A stretch of 64,000 nt of DNA from the NCBI RefSeq assembly GCF_000302595.1, contig NZ_JH947127.1, positions 452,126 through 516,125 on the forward strand. Direction: 5' to 3'. Shown here one piece after another: positions 16,200-25,916 of this stretch (positions are counted from its first letter, which is position 1; every line of letters starts with the position of its first letter). The notes under the pieces are model-generated. The model saw nothing but the letters and a program-made list of their open reading frames with translations. It was not told the origin of the DNA and ran no database searches. Source of the DNA: Pedobacter arcticus A12. Its GTDB lineage: Bacteria > Bacteroidota > Bacteroidia > Sphingobacteriales > Sphingobacteriaceae. The translations under genes were made by a program, and so were the position numbers.

Positions 16200-16406
16200 A
16201 TGATTAAATTTACGTTAGAAGGAGAGTTTATCCCCTTAATTCAGCTTTTAAAAGCTACGGATTTGGTTTCTTCTGGAGGAGAAGCACAAATGGTAGTATT
16301 GGACGGTTTGGTTAAATATAACGGCGAAATCGACTATAGAAAAAGATTAAAAGTAAAAAGAGGCGATATAGTTGAATTTAACGGACAAACCATCAGTATT
16401 ATATGA
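16200..16406 (+). CDS. Small S4-domain RNA-binding protein (YbcJ/YaaA-like)
   Basis: The 68-residue protein is one S4 domain: FTLEGEFIPLIQLLKATDL, then SSGGEAQMVVLDGLVKYNGE and the KVKRGDIVEFNGQTI end. It binds structured RNA, perhaps the ribosome; the partner is unknown. The ATG at 16200 was preferred to an upstream in-frame start at 16152 because the domain begins here and a promoter box lies between them. Its stop overlaps the aroB start by 4 bases (ATGA), so the two are translated together. Confidence 0.85.
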   Translation: MIKFTLEGEFIPLIQLLKATDLVSSGGEAQMVVLDGLVKYNGEIDYRKRLKVKRGDIVEFNGQTISII

Positions 16407-17464
16407 AATCGATACAAAACAGCAACTACCAAGTTTACTTTGATAATAGTTTAAGCGTTTTAAACGAAGTTCTTGCGAGGAAAACCTACTCAAAGGTTTT
16501 TATTTTAACTGATGAAGTAACCGGAGAGCTCTGCTTGCCAGTATTGCGTGAAAAATTACCTGAACTTACAGATTTTGATTTAATTGAAGTGCCTAACGGC
16601 GAAGAAAACAAGACCATTGATTTCTGTATCGGTATTTGGAGAACCCTTTTAGATTTCGAAGCTGATAGAAATGCTATTCTAATAAACTTAGGTGGCGGCG
16701 TAGTCACTGATATGGGAAGTTTTGCGGCTTCTACCTTTAAGCGAGGAATTGAGTTTTTACAGATTCCTACCACTTTACTTTCGCAGGTTGATGCTTCCGT
16801 TGGTGGTAAAACAGGTATTGATATGGATGATGTTAAAAACATTATCGGCACTTTTGCACAGCCACAAGCTGTAATTATCTCCACCGAGTTCTTCAAAACA
16901 TTATCGGATAGGGAAATGACTTCTGGCTTTGCGGAAGTTATTAAACACGGAATTATTGCTGATGCTGATTTTTTTACTGACGTTGCACAATTAGAAAATG
17001 CCAGAGCTATAACCGAAGCACACATTTATCATTCTGTAGAGATAAAAAACAATGTAGTAACTGAAGATCCTTTTGAAAAAGGCTTAAGAAAAACGTTGAA
17101 CTACGGACACACCATCGGTCACGCGATAGAGTCTTGGTCTTTATCTAACGAAAAAAATTCTTTATTACACGGCGAGGCCATTGCTATTGGGATGATTTGC
17201 GAAGCTTATTTAGCTATGCAATTGGTTGGCTTATCAGAAAAAGATTTAGCTACCATTACAGAAACATTTTTGAAATATTACGGAAAGTATAATATCAGAG
17301 AAGGCATTGAAAACGAGCTTTTAAACATCATGAAGCAGGATAAGAAAAACCAATCTGGAAAAATTAGCTTCTCCTTACCAGATAAAATTGGTAATTGCAA
17401 GTTTGATATTTTTGTAGAAGAAAAGTTAATTAGAGAAAGCTTAGCTTATTACCAGTCACTTTAA
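16403..17464 (+). CDS. aroB: 3-dehydroquinate synthase
   Basis: It cyclises DAHP to 3-dehydroquinate, the second step of the shikimate pathway, using NAD and a divalent metal. The 353-residue length is standard. The NAD-binding stretch is NLGGGVVTDMGSFAAS, followed by IPTTLLSQVDASVGGKTG. The metal ligands are in FAEVIKHGII (Glu), LNYGHTIGHAIE (His) and LLHGEAIAIGM (His). It overlaps the S4 gene by 4 bases and ends just before a terminator. The pathway continues with aroF, aroA and aroC about 5 kb downstream in a separate unit. Confidence 0.97.
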   Translation: MKSIQNSNYQVYFDNSLSVLNEVLARKTYSKVFILTDEVTGELCLPVLREKLPELTDFDLIEVPNGEENKTIDFCIGIWRTLLDFEADRNAILINLGGGVVTDMGSFAASTFKRGIEFLQIPTTLLSQVDASVGGKTGIDMDDVKNIIGTFAQPQAVIISTEFFKTLSDREMTSGFAEVIKHGIIADADFFTDVAQLENARAITEAHIYHSVEIKNNVVTEDPFEKGLRKTLNYGHTIGHAIESWSLSNEKNSLLHGEAIAIGMICEAYLAMQLVGLSEKDLATITETFLKYYGKYNIREGIENELLNIMKQDKKNQSGKISFSLPDKIGNCKFDIFVEEKLIRESLAYYQSL

Positions 17465-20241: not shown

Positions 20242-21129
20242 ATGTTGTTTGACAATTATAAAAACCTGGCAATCATTCTCCTTTTTGTATTGGTATGCAT
20301 CCTCTCCATTACCGAGATGATTTATAGTTACGCTAAGGGTAAAAACCTTTACGACAAAAAAGACACATTCATGAATATTTATCTCATGGGTGCTGCTTTT
20401 CTGGTAAATATTGCTTCACAAGGCAGTTCCTTCTTTGTCTTGGAGTTCTTTTACCATTTACGCTTTTTTGAAATCAAAGATATCTACATCTATTACTTCG
20501 TACTGTTCCTAGCTCAAGACTTTTTATACTGGTTGTTACACGCTGTAGGTCATTACAGCCGTTTATTTTGGGCAATGCATGTCACGCATCATTCCTCAGA
20601 AAAATTCAATATTACAACAGGTTTCAGGTCAACTGTCTTTGAACCCCTATATCGGATGTTCTTTTATATTCCACTCCCACTAATGGGCTTTCAAGTTGTG
20701 GACGTTTTATTTATGTATTTAGTTACCCAGATTTACGGCAACATCATCCACACCCAAGCCATCAATAAAATGTACGCTTGGTTCGAATATATATTTGTTA
20801 CCCCATCACACCACCGGGTGCACCATGCTTCTAATATTCTTTATCTCGATAAAAATATGGGCATGGTTCTAATTATTTGGGATCGAATGTTTGGTACTTT
20901 CCAACAAGAACTCCCAGAAGAAAAAGTAGTGTTCGGAATTACCGAAGAATTGGGTAACCTTAACTTTAAGGACACCATTTTCCACGAGTTTAAGAACATC
21001 AGACACGATATCTCGTTATCTCCTGTTTTTAACGATAAGCTGAAATACATCTTTTATCCACCGGGCTGGAGCCATGACGGTCGTACACAAACAGCAAAGG
21101 TTTTACAGGCCCAGCTGAAAAAAAAATAA
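20242..21129 (+). CDS. Sterol desaturase/fatty acid hydroxylase family membrane protein
   Basis: This family comprises integral-membrane di-iron oxygenases that hydroxylate or desaturate lipids. The 295-residue protein has about four hydrophobic segments. The full histidine set is present: HAVGH (H100, H104), HVTHH (H113, H116, H117) and HHRVHH (H190, H191, H194, H195). The substrate is not readable; in Bacteroidota these enzymes are often linked to sphingolipids, ornithine lipids or carotenoids. It stands alone and ends just before the pheA leader region. Confidence 0.9.
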   Translation: MLFDNYKNLAIILLFVLVCILSITEMIYSYAKGKNLYDKKDTFMNIYLMGAAFLVNIASQGSSFFVLEFFYHLRFFEIKDIYIYYFVLFLAQDFLYWLLHAVGHYSRLFWAMHVTHHSSEKFNITTGFRSTVFEPLYRMFFYIPLPLMGFQVVDVLFMYLVTQIYGNIIHTQAINKMYAWFEYIFVTPSHHRVHHASNILYLDKNMGMVLIIWDRMFGTFQQELPEEKVVFGITEELGNLNFKDTIFHEFKNIRHDISLSPVFNDKLKYIFYPPGWSHDGRTQTAKVLQAQLKKK

Positions 21130-21157: not shown

Positions 21158-21165
21158 TACATTTG
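21158..21165 (+). promoter_or_regulatory. -7 promoter box for the pheA leader and aromatic operon
   Basis: TACATTTG matches TAnnTTTG exactly. Transcription would begin near 21171-21173, leaving under ten bases before the leader peptide ATG at 21180. No convincing -33 box is seen. Confidence 0.55.
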
Positions 21166-21179
21166 CCACACAGAGAAAA

Positions 21180-21251
21180 ATGAACACTAACACTACATAT
21201 TACTTCGGTTACTTTTATTTTAGAAATAAGAGCCGGGTTTCTATGTCTTAA
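21180..21251 (+). CDS. Leader peptide of the pheA operon (Tyr/Phe sensor)
   Basis: This 23-codon open reading frame contains the run YYFGYFYF (21198-21221), with four Tyr and three Phe codons in eight. It has no Trp codon. It ends at TAA 21249-21251, 18 bases before the terminator stem. Codons 18-21 (AGC CGG GTT TCT) contain the antiterminator segment. In classical attenuation a ribosome stalls on such codons when the charged tRNA is scarce. The composition, the position right after a -7 box and the overlap with the switch RNA together make chance unlikely. The role is inferred, since no expression evidence is available. Confidence 0.85.
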   Translation: MNTNTTYYFGYFYFRNKSRVSMS

Positions 21252-21300
21252 AATATATAAGAACTTTAAAACCCGGCCGAATAAGCCGGGTTTTTTTTTA
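21231..21300 (+). promoter_or_regulatory. Transcription attenuator (antiterminator/terminator switch) of the pheA operon
   Basis: Three segments define the switch. A is GCCGGGTTT at 21232-21240, inside the leader peptide. B is AAACCCGGC at 21269-21277. C is GCCGGGTTT at 21285-21293, followed by a T run to 21299. B-C is a GC-rich intrinsic terminator with a 7-base loop, extended to 10 pairs by A21268-T21294. A is an exact copy of C, so A-B pairing excludes the terminator. A ribosome that reaches the leader stop codon would cover A and let B-C form. A ribosome stalled on most of the Tyr/Phe codons leaves A free, and the operon is transcribed. Confidence 0.87.
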
Positions 21301-21308
21301 TCAAAAAA

Positions 21309-22139
21309 ATGAGCGCAAAAAAGAGAGTTGCCATACAAGGAATCAAAGCTTCGTTTCACGAGGAAGCTGCTTTTAAGTTTTTTGGAGAAGATATTGAAAC
21401 CATTGAGTGCAATTCTTTTAAACAAACTTTTCAAAAGTTAGCCGGTGGCGAAGCAGATTATGTAGTGATGGCTATAGAAAACAGCATTGCTGGTAGTTTA
21501 TTACCGAATTACAGTTTATTGAGAGAGTATAATTTCCCTGTTATTGGCGAAGTTTACTTGCCTATAAAACTGCACTTAATGGCACTGTCAGGCGTAAAGT
21601 TTGAGGATATTAAAACGGTAACTTCTCACCCAATCGCTATCCGCCAATGCGGAGATTTCTTGGATGAATTTCCAAAGATAAAAGTGACAGAAAGTAGTGA
21701 TACCGCGGCCTGTGCAAAAAAAATAAGAGATGAACAACTGTTTGATACCGCCGCTATTGCCAATAATTTAGCTGCTAAGCTTTACGGTTTAACCATTTTA
21801 GAGCGCAGCATCGAATCAAACAAAAAAAATTATACACGCTTTTTAATATTAACAGATAAGCAGATAGAAATCAAAAACGCGAACAAAGCGTCGTTATGTT
21901 TTCAGGTAACAAATGATGCAGGCTCTTTGGTTAAAGTATTAAATATTTTAGCCGAGCTAGATATTAATATGAGTAAAGTACAATCGATGCCGGTTTTAGG
22001 CAAACGTAACGAGTACAATTTTTACGTTGACATTGAATGGAACAAAGCGGAAAATTACGATGATGCCATCCGTAGAATAGTAAAACACACCATCAACTTT
22101 AGCATTATGGGCGAGTATTTGAGAAACGATGCTGTGTAA
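21309..22139 (+). CDS. pheA: Prephenate dehydratase
   Basis: It turns prephenate into phenylpyruvate, the committed step to phenylalanine. The 276-residue monofunctional form has the catalytic domain at about residues 4-180 (VAIQGIKASFHEEAA, MAIENSIAGSLLPNY, and the ESNKKNYTRFLIL motif that carries the catalytic Thr-Arg-Phe). An ACT domain follows at about 195-270. The Phe-binding GALV and ESRP motifs of well-studied enzymes appear here as GSLV and QSMP, so allosteric control may differ. It is the first gene after the attenuator and heads an operon with aroF, aroA and aroC. The start ATG is 9 bases past the terminator T run. Confidence 0.95.
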   Translation: MSAKKRVAIQGIKASFHEEAAFKFFGEDIETIECNSFKQTFQKLAGGEADYVVMAIENSIAGSLLPNYSLLREYNFPVIGEVYLPIKLHLMALSGVKFEDIKTVTSHPIAIRQCGDFLDEFPKIKVTESSDTAACAKKIRDEQLFDTAAIANNLAAKLYGLTILERSIESNKKNYTRFLILTDKQIEIKNANKASLCFQVTNDAGSLVKVLNILAELDINMSKVQSMPVLGKRNEYNFYVDIEWNKAENYDDAIRRIVKHTINFSIMGEYLRNDAV

Positions 22140-22249
22140 TCAGTAAAAAGGAGTTCATTAGTCATTAGTGAAGTAGTGAGTAGTCAAAAAACAATCGATA
22201 AAAGAAAAATAAATAATAAAACAAATAAGAGTTTTAAGACGCATTCGAA

Positions 22250-22301
22250 ATTCAATCATTCAGAATTAAAGGCATTCAATCATTCTCTCATTCAATCATT
22301 C
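22250..22301 (+). repeat. Three direct copies of ATTCAATCATTC in the pheA-aroF spacer
   Basis: Copies lie at 22250-22261, 22274-22285 and 22290-22301. Just upstream (about 22156-22185) a second short motif, CATTAGT/GTAGT, is also repeated. The 180-base spacer has no ORF or terminator, so the operon probably runs through it. Confidence 0.75.
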
Positions 22302-22319
22302 AAAATTAAATAAATACGT

Positions 22320-23429
22320 ATGAAACTTAACCTAAATATAGAACCATTAAGTAACTGGGCGCCGGTTAGCAATGGAAAACCACTTATCATTTCTGGACCA
22401 TGTAGTGCAGAAACTGAAGAACAATTATTAGCAACTGCCCGTTTACTAAAAGCCACTGGTAAGGTAAATGTATTAAGAGCAGGAATCTGGAAGCCACGTA
22501 CTCGCCCAGGAGAATTTGAAGGTATTGGTGCTATCGGTTTAGAATGGTTAAACAAAGCTAAGGCAGAAACAGGTTTCCCCATTGCTGTGGAAGTTGCAAA
22601 CGCAAAACACGTTGAAGAAGCTTTAAAAGCAAAAGTTGATATCCTTTGGATTGGCGCCCGTTCAACGGTAAACCCGTTTACTGTACAGGAAATTGCTGAT
22701 GCTTTAAAAGGTGTTGACATCCCAGTAATGGTAAAAAACCCAATTAATCCAGATTTATCTTTATGGATTGGTGCTTTAGAGCGTATCAACGGTGCCGGAA
22801 TCACTAAACTAGCGGCTATTCACCGTGGTTTCTCTTCTTTCGAGAAGTCGGCTTTCCGTAACGAACCAATGTGGGATTTGGCAATCAGTTTAAAAACTTT
22901 AATTCCAGAATTACCAATTCTTAACGACCCATCACACATCTGTGGATCTCGCGAATTGATTCCTTTCATTTCTCAAAAAGCTTTGGATTTAGATATGCAA
23001 GGTTTGATGATTGAAGCACATATTGATCCTTCGGTTGCTTGGACAGATGCTAAACAACAAGTTACTCCAGCGGCATTAAGCGATATGATTGATGGATTTA
23101 TTCTGCGTACTGCTGATTCAAAAAACCCAGACTTTGCCGATAAATTAGCAGGATTAAGGGAAAAAATTGACCAGTTAGACGATTCAATTTTTCAAAAACT
23201 GGGCGAGCGTATGAAGATTGTTGAGCAGATTGGTGAGTATAAAAGAGATAATGACGTTACCATTTTACAAGTTTCTCGTTGGGATGAAATTCTACAGAAA
23301 AGAGCTGCTTTTGGTAAGGCATTAAATCTGGAAAAAGAATTTACTGAGAAAATTTTAGAATTAATTCACAGCGAGTCTATTCGTAAGCAAACTGCAATTA
23401 TGAATACCGCTAAAGCTGATTTAGGATAA
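22320..23429 (+). CDS. aroF: Bifunctional DAHP synthase (type I beta)/chorismate mutase (AroQ type)
   Basis: The N-terminal domain (about residues 1-265) condenses phosphoenolpyruvate and erythrose 4-phosphate to DAHP, the entry step of the shikimate pathway. It is of the KDO8P-synthase-like beta subfamily: SGPCSAETEEQ, RAGIWKPRTRPGEFEG, GARSTVNPFTVQEIA, ILNDPSHICG. The C-terminal domain (about 275-360: LREKIDQLDDSIFQKLGERM) is an AroQ chorismate mutase that makes prephenate for PheA. Fusion of mutase to synthase usually gives feedback control by prephenate. The last base of its stop codon is the first base of the aroA ATG, so translation is coupled. Confidence 0.95.
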   Translation: MKLNLNIEPLSNWAPVSNGKPLIISGPCSAETEEQLLATARLLKATGKVNVLRAGIWKPRTRPGEFEGIGAIGLEWLNKAKAETGFPIAVEVANAKHVEEALKAKVDILWIGARSTVNPFTVQEIADALKGVDIPVMVKNPINPDLSLWIGALERINGAGITKLAAIHRGFSSFEKSAFRNEPMWDLAISLKTLIPELPILNDPSHICGSRELIPFISQKALDLDMQGLMIEAHIDPSVAWTDAKQQVTPAALSDMIDGFILRTADSKNPDFADKLAGLREKIDQLDDSIFQKLGERMKIVEQIGEYKRDNDVTILQVSRWDEILQKRAAFGKALNLEKEFTEKILELIHSESIRKQTAIMNTAKADLG

Positions 23430-24670
23430 TGAGTTTATCATTTACCGTTAAAAGGGAAAAACTAAAAACAGAAGAAACGATAGAACTAACGGGCTCAAAA
23501 AGCGAAAGCAACAGAGCCTTAGTTTTAGCTGCATTGAGCGATGGAAAGGTTAACATCAAAAACCTTTCCTCCGCGGCAGATACTGTAACATTGGATAACA
23601 TCATCAACCAGCAAATCAAAAACAACAATGCTGTTGTAAATGTTGGCCCAGCCGGTACAGCAATGCGCTTTTTAACTGCTTACCTTTCTTTACGCGGAAA
23701 AAAAGTAGAGATAACAGGAACCGAAAGGATGAAACAACGTCCGATTGGTATTTTGGTTGATGCTTTAAGAAGCTTAGGTGCTGATATTTCTTATAAAGAA
23801 GTTGACGGCTTCCCTCCTGTTTTAGTTGATGGTGCATTTCAACAAAAATCGAAACATATTGCCATTAGAGGTGATATCAGTTCTCAGTTTTTAACAGCGT
23901 TGCTATTAATTGGAAGTTCTTTACCAGAGGGTTTAGATTTAGAGATTGTTGATGAGTTAACTTCTCGTCCGTACGTAGAGATGACTTTATCGATGTTGCA
24001 CCAATGTGGCATCCAATATTCGTGGAATAATGAGATCATCAGCATTGCACCACAGAAATTTGAAGAAACTACCTTAACGATAGAGCCAGATTGGAGCGCT
24101 GCTTCGTACTGGTACAGTGTTGCTGCACTTTCTGATGAATCTATTATCCACCTTCCAAACTTAAAGAAAAACAGTTTGCAGGGCGATAGCGCTATTGCAG
24201 ACATCATGAGTTTGTTTGGGGTTAATACGTTTTACAACGAAGACGGAATCACGATCGAAAAAGTGACGTCAGAAATTAAACCACAGCTTTTGGATTTTAA
24301 AAAATGTCCAGATTTAGCACAAACGGTGGTTGTTGTTGCTGCAGCTTTAGGGAAAGAATTCAGTTTTACAGGGCTAGAAACCTTAAAAATAAAAGAAACT
24401 GATCGTATTTTTGCGCTTCAAACAGAGCTGGCTAAAATTGGTGTAACGCTAATCGAAACTCAAGACGGCGTTTATCAGCTAAACTGTAACGATTTACATT
24501 TTCCAAAACAAGTCAACTTTGCAACGTACGAAGATCACCGTATGGCAATGGCCTTTGCGCCACTTGCAATTGTTATTGATGAAGTTTTAGTAGAAGAAGC
24601 AATGGTGGTGGAAAAATCGTACCCTCATTTTTGGGAAGATTTTAAGAAGATAGGCTTTGAGATAAAGTAA
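23429..24670 (+). CDS. aroA: 3-phosphoshikimate 1-carboxyvinyltransferase (EPSP synthase)
   Basis: It adds the enolpyruvyl group of PEP to shikimate 3-phosphate. The 413-residue length is slightly shorter than the E. coli enzyme. Substrate-binding motifs are visible: TGSKSESNRALVLAAL (N-terminal Lys and Ser/Arg), VGPAGTAMRFLTAYLS in place of LGNAGTAMRPL, the KQRPIGILVDALRSLGA segment, and KIKETDRI then YEDHRMAMAFA in the C-terminal half. The start overlaps the aroF stop by one base (TAATG). Confidence 0.96.
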   Translation: MSLSFTVKREKLKTEETIELTGSKSESNRALVLAALSDGKVNIKNLSSAADTVTLDNIINQQIKNNNAVVNVGPAGTAMRFLTAYLSLRGKKVEITGTERMKQRPIGILVDALRSLGADISYKEVDGFPPVLVDGAFQQKSKHIAIRGDISSQFLTALLLIGSSLPEGLDLEIVDELTSRPYVEMTLSMLHQCGIQYSWNNEIISIAPQKFEETTLTIEPDWSAASYWYSVAALSDESIIHLPNLKKNSLQGDSAIADIMSLFGVNTFYNEDGITIEKVTSEIKPQLLDFKKCPDLAQTVVVVAAALGKEFSFTGLETLKIKETDRIFALQTELAKIGVTLIETQDGVYQLNCNDLHFPKQVNFATYEDHRMAMAFAPLAIVIDEVLVEEAMVVEKSYPHFWEDFKKIGFEIK

Positions 24671-24821: not shown

Positions 24822-25916
24822 ATGGCAGGAAATTCCTTTGGGCAAATATTTAAAATCACCACGTTTGGCGAATCACATGGCGCTGCAATTGGTGTAATTA
24901 TAGACGGTTGTCCTTCAAATATTGAAGTTGATTTAGATTTTATTCAGCAAGAGTTGGATAAACGTAAACCTGGTCAATCCAAAATTACTACACAAAGAAA
25001 AGAGTCTGACACTTGCCAGATTTTATCTGGTGTTTTTGAAGGAAAAACTACAGGAACACCTATTGCAATCATCATCCCTAACGAAGATCAGAAATCAAAA
25101 GATTACGATCATAATAAGGATACTTTCCGTCCTTCACATGCTGATTTCACTTACCAAAGCAAATACGGCATTAGAGATCACCGCGGTGGCGGACGTTCAT
25201 CTGCCCGTGAAACTGCGGCTAGGGTTGCAGCCGGTGCATTGGCCAAGTTATTTTTGAAGCAATTAGGGATTGATGTAGTTGCTCACGTAAGTAGCGTTGG
25301 TTTTATTGATGCTCCGTTAGTGGAAGTTAACAACGTTGAAGAATTTGTAAAACTCCGCGAGAGCAATATCGTACGCTGTGCAGATGCTACAACTGCTGAT
25401 GAGATGATTCATTTAATTGATAGCATCAGAAAGGAAGGCGACACCATTGGTGGCAAAGTAACTTGTTTCATCAAGAATTGCCCGGTTGGTTTAGGTGAAC
25501 CTGTTTTTGATAAGCTTCACGCAGATTTAGGTAAAGCCATGTTGAGCATTAACGCAGTTCACGGTTTTGATTACGGTTCTGGTTTTGATGGTTCAACCAT
25601 GCGAGGTTCGCAACATAACGACACTTTTCTAACAGATAAAAACGGAAAAGTGGTTACCAAAACCAATTTCTCTGGTGGTATACAAGGTGGCATTTCCAAT
25701 GGAATGGATATCAACTTTAAGGTTGCTTTTAAACCCGTTGCTACTATTATGACCAACCAAGAAACTGTAAACGCTGCTGGCGAAGCTGCCGAAATTAAAG
25801 GTAAAGGTCGTCACGATCCTTGCGTAGTGCCAAGAGCAGTAGCTATTGTTGAAGCAATGGCCGCTTTGGTAATTGCAGATCATTATTTGAGGAATCAGGT
25901 TTATAATCAAAGTTAA
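24822..25916 (+). CDS. aroC: Chorismate synthase
   Basis: It eliminates phosphate from EPSP to give chorismate and needs reduced FMN. The 364-residue length is standard. The family signatures are [18 protein letters not shown] near the N-terminus, [20 protein letters not shown] (about residues 111-130) and [14 protein letters not shown] at the C-terminal end. It is the last gene of the pheA-aroF-aroA-aroC unit and is followed by a terminator. Confidence 0.97.

Follow-up and report, generated by a model that had tools for sequence, protein, structure and literature searches.

The window, by which we mean the whole stretch of DNA analysed here, comprises 64,000 nt of the forward strand of Pedobacter arcticus A12 (NZ_JH947127.1, positions 452,126–516,125). 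Four genes of aromatic amino acid biosynthesis follow one another in it:

21309–22139, forward strand: pheA, prephenate dehydratase (NF008865, E 5e-60, 203 bits, which does not reach the cut-off of 219; gene order conserved)
22320–23429, forward strand: aroF, DAHP synthase with a C-terminal chorismate mutase (best NCBIfam families below their cut-offs)
23429–24670, forward strand: aroA, EPSP synthase (TIGR01356 over its cut-off)
24822–25916, forward strand: aroC, chorismate synthase (TIGR00033 over its cut-off)

Order and strand are constant in the best 80 of 339 pheA relatives in named genomes, mainly Pedobacter and Mucilaginibacter (hereafter the named loci). In these, aroF follows pheA in 80 of 80, aroA in 78 and aroC in 62; where aroA or aroC is missing, the gene lies beyond the stretch compared or was unmatched. 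The pheA–aroF and aroA–aroC gaps measure 180 and 151 bases, respectively, and no −7 promoter box is visible by eye in either. Judged from the sequence, pheA–aroF–aroA–aroC would form one operon. An earlier note on this DNA placed the whole downstream aromatic pathway under the element described below. The four genes do follow it, but the wording is too wide, because the operon consists of these four genes and aroB (16403–17464) is separate, upstream of the leader and outside its control. The pheA–aroF gap also contains copies of a CATTCAATCATTC-like repeat (22240–22312, by eye). In an Rfam scan of the whole window, only a Flavo-1 RNA (RF01705; 30927–30997, forward strand) scored over its cut-off, and barely so (42.8 bits, cut-off 42).

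The region directly 5′ of pheA contains a short reading frame and a set of complementary segments:

21158–21165, forward strand: −7 promoter box TACATTTG, of the TAnnTTTG type (kept in 71 of 78 leaders)
21180–21251, forward strand: leader peptide frame of 23 codons, MNTNTTYYFGYFYFRNKSRVSMS and a stop codon (homologous frames in relatives)
21198–21221, forward strand: regulatory codons 7–14, Tyr Tyr Phe Gly Tyr Phe Tyr Phe (aromatic identity conserved at the protein level)
21204–21220, forward strand: segment 1, the 5′ strands (21204–21208 and 21212–21220) of a 1:2 hairpin (predicted fold, codon-order control)
21224–21237, forward strand: segment 2, the 3′ strand of the 1:2 hairpin, overlapping segment A (predicted fold, codon-order control)
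21232–21240, forward strand: segment A GCCGGGTTT, the antiterminator 5′ arm, which duplicates the terminator 3′ arm (sequence, pairing tests)
21246–21262, forward strand: antiterminator inner helix, 21246–21250 with 21258–21262 (predicted fold)
21268–21277, forward strand: segment B, both terminator 5′ arm and antiterminator 3′ arm (sequence, covariation, fold)
21285–21294, forward strand: segment C, the terminator 3′ arm (sequence, covariation, fold)
21291–21299, forward strand: terminator run of nine T (sequence)

All the parts that the earlier note had described (the −7 box, the 23-codon frame, the 10-pair terminator with its T run and the 9-base copy) are present at its positions. The box matches TAnnTTTG, which we take to be the Bacteroidota −7 consensus; the −33 element is weak by eye. 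The leader frame starts with the ATG at 21180 and stops with a TAA at 21249–21251. No GGAGG-like site is visible before the ATG, where the stretch is A-rich. Seven of the eight codons 7–14 specify aromatic residues in the predicted translation and match the end products of the operon. The terminator, AAAACCCGGC-CGAATAA-GCCGGGTTTT, forms 10 pairs (21268–21294), and segment A, which lies inside the leader frame, exactly matches the initial nine bases of the terminator 3′ arm. Antiterminator (A:B) and terminator (B:C) share one arm and are mutually exclusive, as the pairing and covariation comparisons below indicate.

Chance accounts poorly for either the frame or the duplicated arm. Among 20,000 dinucleotide shuffles of 21170–21267, none gave an ATG frame with at least seven aromatics in eight residues, and four contained a 9-mer of the terminator 3′ arm. 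The leader is also the sole ATG frame of 10–45 codons with such an aromatic density on either strand of the 64-kb window.

By eye, a leader frame, segment A and a hairpin precede pheA in all 80 named loci. A script recovered frame and hairpin in 78 of the 80. A stricter one (frame, hairpin and at least five A:B pairs) recovered 67; the other 13 miss its hairpin or T-run threshold, and their printed stretches still show the three segments. We aligned the window with 78 of the 80 loci (79 rows), leaving out L063 and L081, the latter having lost its start codon to a contig end. Across the seven aromatic codon columns, 317 codons are identical to those of the window, 122 are synonymous, 102 encode another aromatic residue and 5 are non-aromatic. 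This distribution indicates that selection acts on the aromatic residues of the leader at the codon and protein level. Tyr and Phe both occur in 79 of 79 family leaders and Trp in 16 of 79; the commonest non-aromatic residue within the aromatic block is Gly (72), followed by Ala (7). The promoter box is conserved as well: among the 78 leaders with sufficient upstream sequence, TAnnTTT[G/A] lies within 55 nt 5′ of the ATG in the 71 noted above, whereas two controls each gave 4 of 78. Searching by exact pattern for segment A of the Mucilaginibacter type gave a single occurrence in each of 6 of 61 family genomes and none in a reversed control; the pattern is too strict for gauging spread.

The spacing of the parts, measured in 68 leaders with the window among them, is constrained as well. 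In 67 of these, 10–14 nt separate the start of the last aromatic codon from that of segment A, and the stop codon begins anywhere from 5 nt 5′ to 24 nt 3′ of the first base of segment A; the sole exception, L073, reflects a wrong frame picked by the script. Given the ribosome footprint size generally accepted, stalling in the aromatic codons should therefore keep most of A accessible, and a ribosome that has reached the stop codon should sit over it.

A further conserved motif, TATG (21242–21245; alignment columns 72–75), is kept directly 3′ of segment A: both T are invariant, and A and G occur in at least 90% of rows. It may possibly act as a pause site or be part of the inner antiterminator helix. 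A G ten bases 5′ of it in 74 of 79 rows makes it a candidate RNA polymerase pause, which we do not put forward as an explanation because a GGG run makes the match to the upstream G easy.

Covariation is clearest for the terminator. All cells (100%) are paired, 5 of 8 pairs show two-sided changes and none of 500 shuffles equalled its pairing, which falls sharply when slid. For the antiterminator, 96.5% of cells are paired (0 of 500 shuffles as high) and 3 of 9 pairs show two-sided changes (2 of 500 shuffles), with a number of further pair types matched by 45 of 500 shuffles; all these shuffles ignore kinship among rows. Its columns 67–69 lack pairing in 6 to 8 of the 77 rows, and several close relatives have just 5–7 A:B pairs. 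Changes coordinated across A, B and C occur at columns 63/125/141 (four rows, with a G-U in the antiterminator), 64/124/142 (L038) and 67/121/145 (the window and L002).

These comparisons also bear on how the hairpin acts. The leader could affect pheA translation by masking its start site, or act through Rho-dependent polarity, with no intrinsic termination involved; the window hairpin does end only 15 bases before the pheA start, and some relatives have T runs only about five long. However, a GC-rich stem followed by T is maintained in the family, and the A/B/C layout suits transcription termination, so that we regard such a mode of action as very unlikely.

Predicted folds, computed on leader sequence ending 5′ of the pheA start, show how the transcription switch might operate. 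The terminator hairpin has a z-score of −3.5 and the A-to-B hairpin one of −4.4, with predicted energies of −15.1 kcal/mol for the B:C terminator and −17.1 kcal/mol for the A:B antiterminator. Before C has been made, A:B is the predicted fold, likewise with a ribosome stalled at codon 7, 9 or 12; a stall at codon 14 reduces it to seven outer pairs. With segment A masked, the terminator remains. Once C is present, the static energy model favours the terminator for every one of the four stall positions, despite a free A, and the switch must therefore be kinetic, with A:B forming first. Attenuation in E. coli is likewise modelled as a kinetic switch.

The nascent transcript is also predicted to form a 1:2 hairpin within the frame (−8.0 kcal/mol) that hides part of segment A. 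Compared with versions whose codons were permuted, its stability exceeds the average in 61 of 68 leaders from the family (z averages −1.1, with 32 under −1) and in 29 of 36 from elsewhere (average −1.3, 16 under −1). We grade this hairpin as no more than probable because its z-score in the window is just −1.5 and, of its 11 cells with two-sided changes, 10 (in 10 rows) belong to a single pair.

Together, the arrangement makes it very probable, on present sequence evidence, that the element is a ribosome-mediated transcription attenuator sensing Tyr and Phe before the pheA operon. Transcription would start near 21170, and the leading ribosome would translate the leader peptide. With ample Tyr-tRNA and Phe-tRNA, it would reach the stop codon and cover segment A, leaving B to pair with C, and RNA polymerase would terminate at the T run, 5′ of pheA. 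Under shortage of Tyr or Phe, stalling would occur in codons 7–14; the footprint of the ribosome would open the 1:2 hairpin and leave A free, A:B would form before C is made and the polymerase would continue into pheA–aroF–aroA–aroC. Without translation of the leader, folding of the predicted 1:2 hairpin would partly conceal A and favour termination.

A riboswitch, a T-box or a protein-binding leader could instead sense Phe, Tyr or a product of the pathway, the peptide being a by-product; leaders of these kinds control aromatic genes elsewhere. At this leader, however, no Rfam family exceeds its cut-off, the conserved positions 3′ of the frame are mostly the pairing segments and the TATG, and codon selection retains the aromatic residues. 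We rejected this reading on conservation and consider it extremely improbable. Membership of a known Rfam family was likewise rejected, since the scores of the hits listed are far under the cut-offs; unlike the E. coli leader that it recalls, the element therefore does not belong by sequence to Phe_leader (RF01859; 27.4 bits against a cut-off of 55).

We then turn from the family to the class. One PheA sequence was searched against 247 class genomes, of which 70 matched (window included), and the upstream stretches of 60 of the other 69 were used; this sample is biased to genomes with a PheA resembling that of the window. Requiring an ATG frame with at least six aromatics in nine residues within 250 nt of pheA, we found leaders in 41 of 60 genomes: 9 of 9 in the window's family and 32 of 51 outside it. 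Outside-family counts are given apart because three or more of the nine from the family (L098, L100 and L101) duplicate named loci; a further set (L082–L094), most of which repeat named loci, was left out. Controls gave 0 of 60 on the reverse strand, 1 of 60 far upstream, and a mean of 0.7 and a maximum of 2 in shuffles.

The same controls and the family comparison address a simpler account, namely that the hairpin is merely the intrinsic terminator of the upstream gene, which ends at 21129, with the frame coincidental and the pheA promoter elsewhere. The hairpin begins 139 bases past the end of that upstream frame, as such a terminator might. Against this, the frame, segment A, the hairpin and the −7 box stay together before pheA while the genes further upstream vary, and aromatic frames are missing from the reverse-strand controls. 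The terminator-only account was rejected on conservation, and we give it almost no weight.

Pairing in the class points to attenuation too. Under a looser rule (five aromatics in nine residues, ATG or GTG start), 45 of the 60 stretches have a leader with a hairpin. The pairing score of segment A averages 19.1 with its own B, compared with 14.1 with the B of other genomes (swapped-B control: s.d. of means 0.39, highest of 300 15.3) and 10.8 for shuffled A. For the 36 leaders outside the family, the values are 18.4 with own B and 13.3 with swapped B; own B beats the swapped median in 32 of the 36 and is top of all in 13. Segment A diverges widely in sequence across class genomes yet keeps its match to B, except in L123, which has frame and hairpin but an A:B match of just three pairs. 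Trp codons occur in 18 of the 45 class leaders. Across relatives in the family and in much of the class, the peptide codons and the three pairing segments therefore stay together and covary, a comparison that the earlier note had proposed and that supports its reading of a Tyr/Phe attenuator.

The leader is not universal. At the six-of-nine threshold, a leader frame is absent in 19 of the 60 class genomes. Three of one genus (L133, L142 and L144) are without a leader, and by eye their pheA appears to follow the end of aroA directly; leader loss may accompany operon rearrangement there. Three genomes grouped in the window's genus (L095, L096 and L097) have only distant pheA genes (42–45% identity) and no frame with six aromatics in nine. 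In L096 and L097, five-of-nine frames lie about 195 nt upstream of the distant pheA and are perhaps worn leaders; L095 has none. No leader turned up within 400 nt in another 20 genomes (0 of 20), 18 of them from other parts of the phylum and two from the in-class family f21. Scanning the full 900 nt again gave none near pheA and a single frame, in L168, at the far edge; 6 of the 20 have a pheA frame that extends 123–411 nt 5′ of the match, and less real upstream sequence was covered in these.

Attenuators were reportedly predicted in Bacteroidetes/Chlorobi by Vitreschak in 2004. The leader described here is like those of E. coli pheA and trp, as generally described, in having a leader frame with many codons for the amino acid sensed, an antiterminator and a terminator that exclude each other, a biosynthetic operon downstream and, as is likely here, a 1:2 hairpin. 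It differs from them in appearing to sense Tyr and Phe jointly, with Trp in some relatives, and in heading a common-pathway operon. Leaders of the ilv type also sense several amino acids and more than one end product, but these are branched-chain, whereas those of the Pedobacter leader are aromatic. The Bacteroid-trp motif (RF01692), presumably linked to Trp genes as its name implies, concerns another gene and has 0 matches in the 64-kb window; it is described as a probable cis-regulatory RNA in Bacteroidetes (PMC2864571).

A 2010 report stated that leader-peptide systems had, to its authors' knowledge, previously been demonstrated only in Proteobacteria and Actinobacteria, its own case being from Firmicutes (PMC2965389). 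Short frames reminiscent of leader peptides have been noted in Bacteroides thetaiotaomicron (PMC7366714), and a 2021 study of Flavobacterium psychrophilum reports strong clues to leader-peptide attenuation before amino acid operons (PMC9723704). The main text of the latter describes a 5′ element that is conserved upstream of pheA among Flavobacteriaceae and gives no peptide, segments or specificity. The earlier note knew of no described example in this phylum; these clues and this pheA element do provide a precedent. Phylum and gene are the same as for the Pedobacter leader, in a comparison that includes no named Flavobacterium sequence, and the two probably belong to the same element family, because 32 of the 51 class genomes outside the window's family have the leader. 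No described Phe/Tyr leader appeared among the literature matches listed, and the sections drawn on from PMC4833913, PMC2864571 and PMC8305728 describe none in Bacteroidota. The kind of element is therefore already known, with a prior hint in the phylum. What appears to be new, as far as sequences tell, is mixed sensing of Phe and Tyr (sometimes Trp) at the head of a common-pathway operon, along with how far it spreads in the class and how it is built.

On balance, we lean slightly towards a broader view in which this is an aromatic attenuator family, old within Bacteroidia, that senses Phe and Tyr (in some cases Trp) through a full 1:2, 2:3 and 3:4 switch, with a leader start lacking a Shine–Dalgarno site. 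Translation initiation in Bacteroidota mostly proceeds without such sites. Attenuation of this type requires tight coupling of RNA polymerase and the first ribosome; if the view is right, the first ribosome would trail RNA polymerase closely in Bacteroidota, and a widely conserved attenuator would offer a simple natural reporter for testing such coupling. It also suggests a possible route by which entry into the shikimate pathway is regulated in Bacteroidota, and the leader would justify a new Rfam family.

The earlier note had overlooked the in-frame hairpin that partly conceals A, the Trp codons that some relatives carry, and leader frames for His and Trp. The latter two lie in the same genome, where no comparable leader was found before ilvD, which by eye appears to sit close behind another gene, or before a second Anth_synt_I_N gene. 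The frame MKLILTPTHHLHHR, with four His codons in six, precedes hisG (L178, G000:C2:226446-229904) and is, from its sequence, likely a His attenuator; by eye, no clear strong terminator is seen upstream of hisG. The frame MNNKNNTNRWWWQGKNLASATVFVY precedes trpE (L179, G000:C4:526429-529869) and is followed by a GC-rich, terminator-like hairpin and a T run, a sequence arrangement that makes it a likely Trp attenuator.
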